In this document: piece after piece, positions 1 to 55,269 of the stretch
Layout: every line of letters begins with the position of its first letter
Numbering within the stretch: position 1 is the first letter of the stretch
DNA from: Phlegmacium glaucopus
Taxonomy: Eukaryota > Basidiomycota > Agaricomycetes > Agaricales > Cortinariaceae
Assembly (NCBI GenBank): GCA_015039465.1
Contig: MU130241.1
Location: forward strand, 62,001-126,000
Length of the DNA: 64,000 bases
Reading direction: 5' to 3'
Notes under the pieces: generated by a model
What the model was told of the DNA's origin: nothing
Database searches by the model: none
The model's input: only the letters and a program-made list of their open reading frames with translations
Program-made: the position numbers and the translations under genes

Positions 1-44
1 TTCTCCCTTCAAACATGTTGGACCATTATCTACTCCTCCTTTAG

Positions 45-211
45 GTTCCATAAAGGACCCCCCTCGCACTTTCGGGATGCATAGATCATTCTCTATCAAT
101 GATGTTGTGTTATTATCGGGGGCTGCCTTTGCGGCTGGCTCTTGCATAACGTTCTTTCTCGTAAATTTGCCTAGACTTTGTGATGCTGGGGTACGCCAGG
201 CAGCCTCTTAG
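45..211 (+). CDS. Family A member A0, exon 3 only (cut by window edge)
   Basis: This is the last exon of a family A gene whose first two exons lie left of the window. The pyrimidine-rich acceptor ctcctcctttag ends at position 44. The reading frame then follows the other alpha-type copies and ends at TAG 209-211. It encodes the conserved hydrophobic C-terminus with the AAFAAGSC core and the NLPRLCDAG tail. The stop lies 5 codons later than in copy A2 because the end is read through to QAAS. Function is unknown. The hydrophobic stretch suggests a tail anchor. Downstream, from about 425, comes an EF3 relic on the opposite strand, the arrangement also seen after A1, A2 and A3. Confidence 0.6.
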
Positions 212-424
212 TTACGGGCGAATAGAATATCAACTACTAGCTGATTCTGGAGGACATTAGTATAATCGCGATATTAACATCATTCATATAAGACTCAAGT
301 ACATTATTATCCCCGTTCTGGCTTTTTGTCATGGCGCGCCAGTGTCTTTCTGTCCCAATTCTCCTTGTGGCGGCCCGTCTACCAGACCTAACATTTAAGA
401 GTCAGATATCGTAGCCGATGAACT

Positions 425-823
425 GCTACTCAAGGGACCGGAAAAGGTCGAATAGCAGTTTTAGACGGCGACTCCAGGGACGAGCGATATGGCAAGCATG
501 AAGTATGCGGTGGATAAACTAGAATCGCTTTAGTGATTCTGGACAAACTGAACAGGAGAACGCTTCTCAGGTTCATCATCAGTGAGGTCATTACTCCTTG
601 TCGATACGAGTCTTGACGGGGACCTTCGCGGTCATGGGTGACGACGAATATCATCTCCGAAAACCCCGAGAGCTTTGATGAGCGCGGTGAGCGATTCACA
701 ATCAAGGTAGTCTAGACGAAAGACAAGGTCGTCGAGACACATGACGTGAGGACGACGGCAAGCACCAAGAACGATCTTAACTTTTTGACCACCTGAGACC
801 TCTCATATCGTAGTGCGAGACAA
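425..823 (-). pseudogene. EF3 relic R0 (C-terminal ABC2 region)
   Basis: Broken fragment of elongation factor 3, in the orientation of the intact gene at 58-61.6 kb. Read on the minus strand it matches the stretch from the ABC2 signature (text equivalent to RGLSGGQKVKIVLGA) through the Walker B/LDEP region, the H-loop segment and the acidic C-terminal codons. Frameshifts and stops interrupt it, and the chromodomain-like insertion of ABC2 is missing. Near 823 the similarity to EF3 stops abruptly and plus-strand CWC22-like sequence begins, so this is a chimeric junction. It is not a functional ABC protein. Confidence 0.75.
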
Positions 824-859
824 ACCCAACAATACGAGAATCGTCTACGACATACAGCT

Positions 860-1453
860 CGATTCTTTGGACACCCTTTCGCCACCGACTCCATATCTTG
901 GATGGTGTTTGAATCGGAACGCTTCAAGATCAACAAAGACGATACAACGAGTAGTAGTCGTATTTTAGTCAAGATCATGATGCAAGAGGGATGATGGGAG
1001 GAGTGGATTCGAAGACTCGCGGAGAGGTTCAAGGATCCTGAGGTGAAGAGGGGGTGTGCGATGGATGTGCCGAAGAATACTCGGTTTGCGATCAATTACT
1101 TCACGAGCATTGGGCTGGGAGTGATTACGGAGGAAATGAGGGAGTATTTGAAGGTGGATTCCTTGGCAATTCCTGTTTTGTCAAGTTTATTACCGGTGGG
1201 TCCATTCTCTATCAACCTAGAATGCACATTGATTATGGAACAACGACGAGCTATGCTCGAGGCAGACTCCTCATCTTCCTGGGATTCGGACCCATCTTCT
1301 GCTGATCCATCTGATCCATCTTCTGAAGATGATGATGAGTCAGTTGCTGGTCGTCGGCGATGTTCAAATTTGAGTCCTCGTCGTCGTCAAGGTCTCCTAT
1401 TCCAAAAGCAAGGGGTGGAAGAGGGAGAGAAGATAGATCTCTCCCCCACATGA
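860..1453 (+). pseudogene. CWC22 splicing-factor relic C0
   Basis: The plus strand encodes pieces of the MA3-domain region of CWC22, the spliceosome-associated factor that recruits eIF4A3. Readable pieces are FATDSISWMVF, then DDTTSSSRI, then MMQE, and after frameshifts an open stretch from 1043 with KNTRFAINYFTSIGLG and TEEMREYLK. These match the CWC22 family in order. A Ser/Asp-rich low-complexity tail follows (about residues 73-100 of the 1043-1453 frame), as is common at CWC22 C-termini. Frameshifts between the pieces and the missing N-terminal MIF4G domain make this a pseudogene. A second copy lies at 11.2-11.6 kb. No intact CWC22 gene is in the window. Confidence 0.7.
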
Positions 1454-1599
1454 GGCCAAGACACGACTTTAGGAAGTCTAGGTCACCCAGCTCCGCCCAT
1501 GTGTGTGAGGTGAGGTGAAGACGTGCGTGGTAGTGGAGGAGGTGGGTATAGGGGGAGAGAAGGGGAAGGGTATGAACGCCGTCGATGATTTATAAATCA

Positions 1600-52099: not shown

Positions 52100-52109
52100 T
52101 AGTAATAAT

Positions 52110-54150
52110 GAACGTTATGGACACTACAGACTAACTGTTCTTGGCAACTGTCAGGGTCAGGCCAAGGCTGTTACCAACAGCCTTGACGCCTGACAAATGC
52201 TAATGGCGTTGTACTAGCTTTGACTTTTCTGAAAAAGCCGCCGTCATCGCCTGGCGCATTTTGGGCCGGAATTATTAAAACATATCACTGTCAGATTATA
52301 ATGATCTTTCGAGTATTAAATTTTTCATTTTTAATTCGCTCATGACCTATCTTTTATTATCCTAGGTCGGTCCTAACACTGAACCGATTGTACAAGCGCT
52401 GATCTTCAGATCGTCACTGGAACTGGGTACAGATTCCTTGTTTGCAAGTTTGGATCTCGGAAGGCGAAGGGGATTGGTCTGTGCGTGATCCCAATCGCGC
52501 CGGAATATTTGGCCAGAGGCCCTGAGCCTGAGCTTGGCGTAGTCTTTTGGGAGAGATTTGATTGGCCTGAGATAGCGGCCCAATCGTTTGATCCTAATCA
52601 ATTCAGAAATCATAAATGATCTGAAGAGGAGTCTGACTGGTGCGCTCGACTGCGTGCCGAAACCAACCGACTGTACCAGATGAAGGGATGGTGGGTGGGT
52701 TGAAGATATTCTGAGGGCTCGTAAATGGTTTTTTTCCGCATCAGAACCAGAAGCACTCCCCTATCGCAATCAAATTTATTCATTATTTACGCATATTATT
52801 TTCAAAGGAAGAAGCTGTTCTAACGCTGGGCGTTGTCTTATCCGAGCTATCCCTCGTTCCTCGGGCTTGCCCATCGCGGAATAAGTCTTTTTGGTAGTCA
52901 GGGTATGTCTAAAATGAGATATACAAGCACTGTGGCTACCAGTGTTGAAATCAGTTGTTTTTGTGATAACTAATTTGTTATCAGAAGGAAGCAAAGAAGG
53001 ATACCTGGGAACGAAACATTGGAAGATGCGGCAGGTAATTGGAAGATGCGGGAGTTAAGTAATCATCTGTCAGAACAGAGTAACGACCAGAACAAATTAT
53101 TAGAGAGGCGGCCCGTTAGAGAAGCCGGCTGTTCGTCACTGTTTATTCTCTCTGATTTGACCTCAACTCATGGCAAATCAATTTTTTGAACGCATTTGCA
53201 CCTATATCAGTAAAATTAAACTGCCAATATTTTTTTTTTACATTTATCTGGGGAAGGGTTGCACCAGTTTTTTTGAATTTGGTCAAAAACATGTAGATTT
53301 GACAAGGAAAGTGCCCAAGAACTGCAACTTGCAAGCCCAAACCAATGAAGCACACAAGAATAAAAAAGACCATGGAGGCTCAGAAGGACTACCTGAATGA
53401 ATCCATAGAGGAAGTAACCTGAGGGAAGAGCGCAGTCAAGCACAGAAACAGTGACAGGAGGAAAAGCAGGTAACAGAGGAGATGCACATTTTGTGAGAGC
53501 GTGTGAGGAGACTAGAGGAAAGCAGGGTCATCCTGTGGAAACGGTGCAAAACGCTGAAGCCTGAAGGGGTGCGAAGGAGGCCTGAACATTGTGCAATAGA
53601 CGGCCATGGGGGGATGGTGAAGGCGATGATAATGGAGCTCAGTGAAGGGGAGCGTGATACCTCAATGGTCGATGATCGCGACCGATATGACTGGGATGAT
53701 TTACTATAATTTATCAATGTGTAGATTAATATTTGGCAGGAACTGTTATCTTATCATATCTTATCATCAAAATGTCCTAATCAAAAATATTTGTATTATT
53801 GATATGACACCGCTTTGAGATGAAGCTCCTTCAAGCGATACGAGCCTGCTGGGTTTAGGAGCCTCCTGTCTAGTTATTTATTGCCATTCTCTCTAGGCTC
53901 AACAAAGCAAAACCCCACGTGAAAACGTGTCCACTGCGTGGACGTACTACTAGCCCTTCTCCACCATAATCGGTGGCTATCTATAGATTAGCCACGAATT
54001 CTGTGGTTGTGAAGCTTAGCAAGCGACCGGAGTGGCCAAAGGTGGCCGTGCGCCTCTCGCAGTATTATACGACCTGATGGCAAGTCAGACTCAAATTTAG
54101 CCCTCAACCACTGTTGACAGGACCCAAAGCTTTCACGTATGTTGTTTTGG
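52110..54150. other. Long spacer without a recognised gene
   Basis: The strand-ambiguous frames at 52362-52613, 53170-53400 and 53436-53717 overlap frames on the opposite strand and show no domain. A weak copy of repeat F lies near 52370, and gcgggagttaagtaatcatctgtc near 53050 matches 45038. This 2-kb stretch has no counterpart in the other units. Confidence 0.4.
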
Positions 54151-54158
54151 CTGCCACC

Positions 54159-54166
54159 TATAAATA
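54159..54166 (+). promoter_or_regulatory. TATA box of A12
   Basis: TATAAATA, 75 nt upstream of the A12 start codon. Confidence 0.65.
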
Positions 54167-54233
54167 CGGCCTAGCAATCTATGACTCCAAATATTCAATC
54201 CCCCCAGATAGACCATATCAGACGTACGCTGGT

Positions 54234-54804
54234 ATGGATGAGGTCGACGAAGGCCCTTTAGTAAATTCAACTATCGTCAACCAGTCCCCTGCTACAGATC
54301 CCAGATTGGAAAAGACGGCAAATTCCCCTCAGTCGAACCACAACATTGATGATGACAGTCATGAAATACACAAAACATACCACTTCCATAATTGTGGTAC
54401 GGTGTATGTGGATGTTACGATGGAAAATTGTGCCAACAGTAATGTTCGACGAGTCACCTGTTCGTCCTTTCCTTTCACTTTTTGTTCCGCAGGTTACTAA
54501 GTCGGCCATGTCATGCTATTTAGATCACCGTCCTAAGATTACGGACTCTGAGTTGCCCGGCGATGAAATCATACATCCGGAGTCGTCTCATGCAGCCTTT
54601 AATGGTGAGTACAGGCTTTCACCGTCCTTACACCAAGCATCTTGAACATCCATTCATCCATTAGGTCCTCTAGTGGACTCTCTTCGCACTCGCGGAACAT
54701 TCTTCGTTGGATTGTTCTCGGGAGTAAGCTTGGTGGCTGTCGCTTTTCTGGCGTTCTTCGTCATGAAGCTTTCAAGCTGCGGTATTCAGATGACCTCTCT
54801 TTAA
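54234..54804 (+). CDS. Family A member A12 (beta type), intact, short motif, 148 aa
   Basis: Exons 54234-54459, 54524-54604 and 54665-54804 (447 nt, open, both introns phase 1; donor 2 is GTGAGT). The start was set by homology; an in-frame ATG further upstream at 54114 precedes the TATA box and was rejected. The motif lacks the loop between its halves: YHFHNCGTVYVDVTMENC, then ANSNV. Exon 3 has VGLFSGVSLVAVAFLAFFVM and ends KLSSCGIQMTSL because the usual stop is lost. It is the array copy nearest to the intact EF3 gene. Confidence 0.7.
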
Positions 54805-55269
54805 AGGGAAGGGGGTGCCAGTGATTATCCGAACATTGACCACATGTACTAGTAACTGATTCTCGACTCGGAGGGCTTATACGGTGTATTTCATTTGGTT
54901 TGCATACATATTCATCAGGGAAAAAAAAGATGTTTCTGTAGTGCATAGTAGGTATGGTAGACCAAATACACTGGTACACAAGTCCCCTCATCAGTAAGTC
55001 CGGTAGTTTTGTGCATCATCTCAGTAGTCTCTAGTAGTTTCTGGTAGTTTCTCTATATGGTTACATAGCAGCCAATATATTATTCTACCAGAACTACTAA
55101 CCTCTTTGTAGCTACAGTTTTTTCCTGTTGTCCTCAGCTCAACCATAATTTTCAGGAAAATAAAATGTTATTGTAGATGTAGTTAACAATGATACAGAAT
55201 GTCTACGGAGCTTCCAAAATTCTACCCGTAAAGAGCAAGCACCCATTTCCCAGCTGCCCGACATGTCAA

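Follow-up and report, generated by a model that had tools for sequence, protein, structure and literature searches.

A locally multiplied family of small genes with a selected 35-residue core in Phlegmacium glaucopus, and its long relatives with an NLR-type motif

The described systems closest to the genes treated here are the amyloid-like motifs of fungal NOD-like receptors (NLRs) and the mycorrhiza-induced small secreted proteins (MiSSPs). In PMC9815663, the meta-family NLR05/08/22/29/44 is suggested to be a basidiomycete variety of the HET-s-related amyloid motif (HRAM), the Agaricomycete motifs are considered amyloid-like, and in Basidiomycota such motifs seem to be rarer on the effector side than on the NLR side. 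The HET-s prion-forming domain and HRAM consist of two 21-residue repeats forming a β-solenoid with two rungs. The present article concerns an array of small-protein genes—family A—in a stretch of 64,000 nt (the window), i.e. bases 62001–126000 of contig C84 in the 60.5 Mb assembly of Phlegmacium (Cortinarius) glaucopus from the family Cortinariaceae. The encoded proteins contain, from the N-terminus, a polar variable stretch, a core of ~35 residues, a linker (exon 2) and a C-terminal hydrophobic segment; purifying selection on them is real and confined to the core.

Compared with the Agaricomycete NLR motifs, the family core is also short, rich in Asn and Gly and predicted to form strands, and the long relatives of the family on contigs C44 and C189 carry an N-terminal motif, e.g. 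NIVINTGSFNDAHGNFHSYNS in one C44 gene, resembling a motif that stands before the NACHT domain in this genome; the array genes themselves, however, lack both that motif and NACHT, and end in a hydrophobic helix. It should be noted that the motif seen here is identified with that of the meta-family by pattern, not by published profiles. With HET-s and HRAM, the core shares its shortness, its Asn and Gly and a pair of NCG turns, 18 residues apart, enclosing a variable loop, but its repeat is weak, there is no Pfam domain and hence no HeLo, a hydrophobic tail is present, and an amyloid state is putative. The proteins of the MiSSP type (PMC7550596) resemble the family in being small, lineage-restricted, expanded, orphan and from an ectomycorrhizal fungus, whereas the hydrophobic segment of family A is C-terminal, with no hydrophobic N-terminus in the 12 window copies. 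No published description of the family stood among the papers listed by literature searches. Lineage-restricted expansions are of a known kind; a small, apparently membrane-anchored family in which one motif alone is under selection and long relatives carry a motif of the NLR type would be new to our knowledge.

Codon models (GY, F3x4, fixed tree; null hypothesis of omega, i.e. dN/dS, equal to 1 with kappa on a grid of values) were fitted to 21 open copies, namely nine from the window (A8 included) and 12 of the 27 other modelled loci; A1, A4 and A7 as well as 15 of the 27 outside loci—those with no or a doubtful model, of the diverged B type, or long relatives—had been dropped beforehand. The outside copies were found by core-bearing queries, which would overlook any locus with a decayed core; those of the window, traced by unit alignment, are largely exempt. 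The core yielded an omega of 0.32 (twice the log-likelihood difference, 2dlnL, 35.7; p 2.3e-9), and it is because of the core that the whole gene exhibited 0.75 (2dlnL 13.1); neither the N-terminus (1.12; 2dlnL 0.6) nor exon 2 (0.81; 1.1) differed from 1. The constraint on the core was found also in the seven window copies of subfamily 2 (0.33; 2dlnL 10.2; p 0.0014), in 14 subfamily-2 copies (0.27; 31.6; p 1.9e-8) and in seven copies of subfamily 1 (0.28; 11.1; p 0.0008). Outside the core, these subsets showed no significant departure from 1 apart from the subfamily-1 N-terminus (2.08; 2dlnL 4.78), its p of 0.029 being uncorrected and coming from one of twelve region tests.

The control was provided by relics of the gene for translation elongation factor 3 (EF3) lying in the array, which, in the EF3 frame, gave an NG86 pN/pS of 0.73 when 15 pairs of relics were pooled (individual pairs ranged from 0.40 to 1.56) and of 0.61 against EF3 itself. 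For the seven window copies, the ratio was 0.56 over the whole gene, 0.26 in the core and 0.58–0.76 elsewhere. Since 0.56 is not far below 0.73, the whole-gene ratio alone is weak evidence. The sequence-only reading of the window had proposed selection on the genes and their comparison with the EF3 relics by dN/dS; it is borne out for the core, well below the control and with omega of 0.27–0.33, but not for the gene as a whole, which stays close to the control, the remaining regions having omega about 1. The same reading had also envisaged diversifying sites in the motif, of which the codon models gave no sign. The pattern of constraint suggests that the core is the working part and the rest a tether.

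The core follows the consensus (K)IYHFxNCGTVYxDSxNxRxVxMENCxNxVxxV, a loose version of which (up to four substitutions) occurs in 77 of the 79 database relatives. A readable, stop-free core is present in all 12 window copies, A1 lacking one residue and both A4 and A12 six residues; the latter are missing from the loop between the two NCG turns, in which some database members have two additional ones. The AlphaFold2 model of the relative P0018, calculated with 46 relatives, contains core strands at residues 26–32, 36–41 and 48–51 (block pLDDT, the predicted local distance difference test, 49–70) and a C-terminal helix at 109–141 (76–98), the overall pLDDT being 65.5 and the predicted template modelling score 0.30. 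That the family is an unrecognised one can be upheld: the best Pfam hit of nine family-A proteins, seen in a single one, was WHIM1 at E 0.2, no Pfam match up to E 1 came up for six proteins of the long or B type, and the PDB sequence searches returned nothing below E 0.05.

As for the C-terminus, a 19-residue segment with mean hydropathy of at least 2.0, followed by 4–13 residues, was found in 11 of the 12 window copies, i.e. in all except the out-of-frame A7, and a segment with mean hydropathy of at least 1.8 is kept in 21 of 21 open copies. In subfamily 2, neither alternative frame of this DNA exceeds 1.33 in any of 14 copies. The first 30 residues contain no hydrophobic segment in any of the 12 window copies (maximum 0.33 or less), this being a check by hydropathy only, with no signal-peptide predictor, and A1, A4 and A7 lacking a true N-terminus; a secreted effector of the MiSSP type was rejected on this basis. 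The layout expected of tail-anchored proteins—a single hydrophobic segment near the C-terminus and none N-terminal—is therefore seen, with the frame control clear for subfamily 2 only, and the hydrophobic tail without an N-terminal signal suggests that the family-A proteins are tail-anchored with the core in the cytosol.

The family is not a chance grouping, as 79 database proteins (found at E ≤ 1, the weakest at 2e-4) and 51 motif places in the genome belong to it. Of the former, two correspond to frames in the window, 20 bear the name P. glaucopus and 57 come from sources labelled ena, jgi or lgn. The 51 core places cover 9 contigs—C84 with 21, C130 with 15, C126 with five, C203, C44, C189 and C187 with two each, and C226 and C9 with one each—many of them in local clusters, and include both B-type copies and long relatives; the 55 kb array first described is expanded indeed, but the family is larger than it and takes in B1–B3. 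These three, the other repeated gene of the array, have a motif of the type IYYIQNYYxNSFNNxxxQMRNCGN; B1 ends in a hydrophobic C-terminus and has two phase-1 introns in its sole model, its frame being interrupted upstream of the ATG. B1–B3 are diverged members of the same family as A.

The long relatives on C44 and C189, of which the spliced C189 model equals the deposited 480-residue P0080 (100%), carry the core in the form QFRNVQAVYINAFNTRGVRVKNAGNHAPQV or close to it, and behind it the phase-1 intron seen in family A. They share with the B genes a stretch modelled as helices in P0080, and possess the second, N-terminal motif mentioned above; in the P0080 model (mean pLDDT 47.5), this motif forms strands, its residues 11–30 reaching 68–82. 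A search with A2 for the core inside long proteins, made at longer lengths, returned two candidates, none at E ≤ 1. At the end of exon 4, the two C44 genes L051 and L068 have an apparent GC-AG intron (donor GCGAGT or GCAAGT), C189 having GTGAGT.

The genome contains at least 150 NACHT (NPHP3_N) matches, 150 having been scored of 317 candidates; many of those on C11 have the same NLR-type N-terminal motif, the mushroom genome being rich in NLRs. Two NLR sequences were used for comparison. The motif before NACHT on C21, MSLFKKARNIIIRGGMFNSAKGDIHIND, lies in another frame than its NACHT, to which it is presumably joined by an intron; it occurs at 20 places, of which 13—counting the query locus and one more place ahead of that NACHT—precede a listed NACHT match by no more than 500 nt. 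The C7 motif, which shares an open frame with its NACHT, has 13 places, five of them so positioned. Nearness to NACHT had not been selected for. Both motifs match also a C14 protein with no listed NACHT beside it. The C14 gene L074 and at least six similar C14 places open with the NLR-type motif (MSFFQGASNVKIVGGEFNDIKGNLT) and also have NSFND-like repeats, and no listed NACHT follows any of them within 500 nt.

In shuffle tests against the N-terminal motifs of five long relatives, namely P0092 and a pair each from C44 and C189, the C21 motif reached p 0.0005 in 5/5, i.e. the floor of 2000 shuffles, and the C7 motif p < 0.02 in 4/5, the fifth being 0.46; these p-values are optimistic, however, both NLRs having been reached through a chain of weak matches begun with a C44 motif. 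The combination of the core with this N-terminal motif in the long relatives suggests a possible membrane-bound amyloid-like signalling module. For the family core itself, only four of 56 shuffle comparisons with the NLR motifs gave p < 0.05, which is about chance level; the profile test was negative, the score of each of seven cores being equalled by no fewer than 124 of 1000 shuffles; and of the 51 core places, none precedes any of the 150 listed NACHT matches by 500 nt or less. The idea that the family-A core is itself an NLR motif was rejected on these grounds, and the link between the family and NLRs goes by a shared protein rather than by a shared motif.

Based on the above results, homotypic β-strand pairing by the core in NLR-linked signalling is put first, tentatively and alongside the docking peptide discussed below. 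The array would represent a family of Phlegmacium, and probably of its near relatives too, encoding small tail-anchored membrane proteins, the N-terminal part of which would face the cytosol. The core would serve as an interaction surface, a strand-turn-strand unit binding its own copies or a like motif, with the rest of the protein as tether and spacer, hence free to drift; signalling would proceed by β-strand templating between the family proteins and NLR-type receptors. Homotypic pairing is favoured because an Asn/Gly-rich strand-turn-strand core has been kept in many parallel copies, and templating with NLRs because the long relatives carry the amyloid-like motif of NLR type. Local duplication, through which copies come and go in gene clusters for allorecognition and immunity, may likewise account for the birth and loss of copies in this family.

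Besides the lack of significant similarity between core and NLR motifs, several observations weigh against homotypic pairing in a membrane setting. Statistical support for an internal repeat in the core is weak (p between 0.012 and 0.37 for five versions), the confidence of the core in the P0018 model is moderate, Foldseek gave no fold relative among its eight matches, the best at E 3.3, and the core of P0080 is modelled without strands (pLDDT about 33–43). The membrane exon, exon 3, has omega 0.96 (2dlnL 0.1) in the 21 copies, and for subfamily 1 the hydropathy test says little because another frame of the exon 3 DNA is about as hydrophobic (at least 1.7 in 7/7). The core ratio rises to 0.50 when all 12 window copies are pooled, a set that combines subfamilies and in which A4 and A12 align poorly at their ends. 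Alternatively, the core may act as a monomer, docking onto one conserved cellular partner, the proteins being tail-anchored adaptors that bring this partner to a membrane, with neither self-templating nor a link to NLRs. An adaptor would show a short, strongly constrained segment, drift elsewhere and a C-terminal anchor; the absence of core places before a listed NACHT and of a significant similarity between core and NLR motif also speaks for this reading. This possibility, held just as tentatively as homotypic pairing, nevertheless leaves unaccounted for the NLR-type motif of the long relatives as well as the strong multiplication and frequent disabling of copies.

The sequence-only reading had listed thirteen three-exon copies, A0–A12 (Table 1), and self-comparison, a six-frame motif scan and nucleotide alignment place twelve of them, A1–A12, with exon 1 where it had put them—ten by the motif scan, A4 and A12 by nucleotide alignment of units—and A0, cut by the window edge, with exon 3 alone inside, its exon 1 lying before the window at C84:61620–61838. 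The two further motif-scan matches, at 23151 and 45622, are chance. Both introns are in phase 1, intron 1 of 57–72 nt sitting directly behind the core with the donor GTTYGY in 11 of 12 copies (ATTCGT in A8), and intron 2 measuring 55–68 nt; exon 2 has 60–99 nt (70 in A7, out of frame) and exon 3 encodes the hydrophobic tail. The whole open frames named earlier (A2, A5, A6, A9, A10, A11 and A12) proved correct, and so did the altered ends of A3, its exon 3 being frame-changed yet still hydrophobic, and of A4 with its short N-terminus. Deposited models, being annotation and not transcripts, agree for several: A5 and A10 are identical to the 'hypothetical proteins' P0005 and P0001, respectively, A4, A6 and A12 are contained in P0012, P0002 and P0003, and the last 60 residues are shared by A2 with P0009 and, identically, by A11 with P0004; for A3, A8 and A9, no counterpart of this kind was among the deposited proteins found. 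The exon gaps (42 of 46 multiples of three, as against 4 of 13 and 5 of 10 for the introns) were set aside as coding evidence because the copies had been chosen for open frames.

The EF3 relics derive from the EF3 gene in the window and are decayed, as previously assumed, 9 of the 22 stretches of at least 15 codons containing a stop in the EF3 frame; HEAT_EF3_N also matches C164 and C61 (98 bits), the C164 place presumably resembling GCN1. Around A8–A11, the units consist of a subfamily-2 gene, a stray subfamily-1 exon 3 and an EF3 relic; the five stray fragments reported before were all recovered, four by protein match and the fifth, near 47516 (+), by nucleotide alignment only. A third explanation is a mostly idle tandem amplification, with an old function retained by just one copy or a few and the others being neutral by-products of duplication around EF3. 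The broken copies A1, A7 and A8 speak for it, together with omega near 1 over most of the coding sequence and a mean intron divergence of 0.236, close to the dS among window copies of 0.16–0.35. It appears unlikely, however, as the core is constrained within the seven window subfamily-2 copies alone, one group of the tree, and a single functional lineage would predict incipient loss of the core elsewhere, yet it stays readable in every one of the 12 window copies.

The subfamily-2 gene might finally be the cargo of a small mobile unit whose copies have a common left edge, with unrelated sequence further upstream, and have spread by insertion and not by unequal crossing-over. Its left edges lie near a TATA-like element (20007, 30697 on the minus strand, 35015, 40366, 45881, 49162 and 54159), and for 12 of 15 distinct loci (16 rows, L017 and L024 being one gene) the alignment with A9 begins 80 to 44 nt before the A9 start codon; seven of these 12, from three contigs, begin at the same four bases. 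The remaining loci align from 20 nt upstream in one case and from inside the gene in two of subfamily 1. In the sequence compared, no match was found for what lies upstream of A5, A9, A10 and A12, and A6 had only a 77-nt piece in common there. This pattern could reflect insertion of a unit with a fixed left edge, but a conserved core promoter with fast turnover upstream of it would look alike. Moreover, no transposase domain was found in Pfam, the right edges are variable, introns are retained, upstream sequence is common to the copies of subfamily 1 and to the members of one C130 pair, and the flanks of A8 and A11 hold other sequence of the array, making a mobile unit the most improbable of the explanations considered. 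A transposon gene, which had been raised as a possible identity of the frames, was dismissed, since the nine family-A and six long or B proteins contain no transposase, reverse transcriptase or capsid domain in Pfam.

Table 1 Features of the window, with positions counted from its first base
Feature	Position	Strand	Remarks
A0, exon 3 only	44..196	+	exons 1-2 before window; frame open in genome, model L046
A1, 5' part lost	5065..5565	+	exons 5065-5200, 5270-5344, 5408-5565
A2 gene, 153 aa	9995..10586	+	exons 9995-10238, 10306-10365, 10429-10586
A3 gene, 148 aa, altered exon 3	15043..15621	+	exons 15043-15286, 15353-15427, 15494-15621
A4, short N-terminus	17706..18200	-	exons 18200-18089, 18016-17942, 17878-17706
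A5 gene, 143 aa	20087..20641	+	exons 20087-20294, 20358-20435, 20496-20641
A6 gene, 150 aa	30045..30620	-	exons 30620-30386, 30321-30244, 30184-30045
A7, exon 2 out of frame (70 nt)	34147..34648	-	core readable
A8, 134 aa open frame	35091..35631	+	first donor AT, not GT; 35091-35286, 35355-35432, 35501-35631
A9 gene, 155 aa	40446..41040	+	exons 40446-40704, 40773-40850, 40910-41040
A9 core motif	40596..40703	+	HKIYHFHNCGTVYVDARSSHRVTMENCANSNVRRVT; only region with omega clearly <1
A9 exon 3, C-terminal hydrophobic segment	40910..41040	+	19-residue segment of mean hydropathy 2.78, then 10 further residues
A10 gene, 157 aa	45952..46548	+	exons 45952-46195, 46260-46358, 46418-46548
A11 gene, 159 aa	49239..49845	+	exons 49239-49509, 49577-49654, 49715-49845
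A12 gene, 148 aa	54234..54804	+	exons 54234-54459, 54524-54604, 54665-54804
B1, diverged family member	12489..13366	-	256 aa from in-frame ATG; exons 13366-13252, 13200-13120, 13063-12489
B2, copy of B1	43310..44300	+	stop inside motif
B3, copy of B1	3226..4048	-	motif readable
Stray exon 3, subfamily 1	32545..32682	-	protein match
Stray exon 3, subfamily 1	36518..36652	+	protein match
Stray exon 3, subfamily 1	41716..41823	+	protein match
Stray exon 3, subfamily 1	47516..47650	+	nucleotide similarity only; end approximate
Stray exon 3, subfamily 1	50587..50751	+	protein match; three stops
EF3, translation elongation factor 3	57951..61600	-	parent of relics
EF3-derived relic behind A9	42328..42892	-	
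Other EF3 relics	6081-6528, 16284-17080, 32024-32342, 48892-49056, 51174-51691		32024-32342 on other strand; also shorter ones

Among the further features of the locus, minisatellites lie between the copies at 2665–2958, 46691–46801, 55280–55374 and 55643–55737 (89-, 53-, 20/40- and 30-nt periods, respectively), and an open frame of 425 aa without a Pfam match is situated between A5 and A6 (21490–22767, minus strand). Outside the window, within the wider spread of the C84 family copies, there is a Homeobox_KN gene (C84:45761–47005, minus strand). The domain match (C84:45785–45892) prompted the idea of a mating-type A locus nearby, which was dropped, since a head-to-head homeobox pair on C144 fits better, by position only; the C84 gene is thus probably not the mating-type locus.

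Orphan families make up a large share of a mushroom genome, mostly without any lead to what they do; here a stretch of 35 residues stands out as the sole clearly constrained part, and the long relatives tie this core to a motif that stands before NACHT in an NLR-rich genome. Extended to its furthest, homotypic pairing would make the array the membrane-bound branch of a network for amyloid-like NLR signalling in Cortinariaceae, with dozens of tail-anchored proteins whose selected β motif is templated by the two-motif long relatives, a scenario that should be taken as quite doubtful. If true, an NLR signal could pass to membranes, and the birth-and-death expansion would mark a role in allorecognition or immunity. 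A membrane-anchored candidate family would make the question of effector-side versus NLR-side motifs directly testable.

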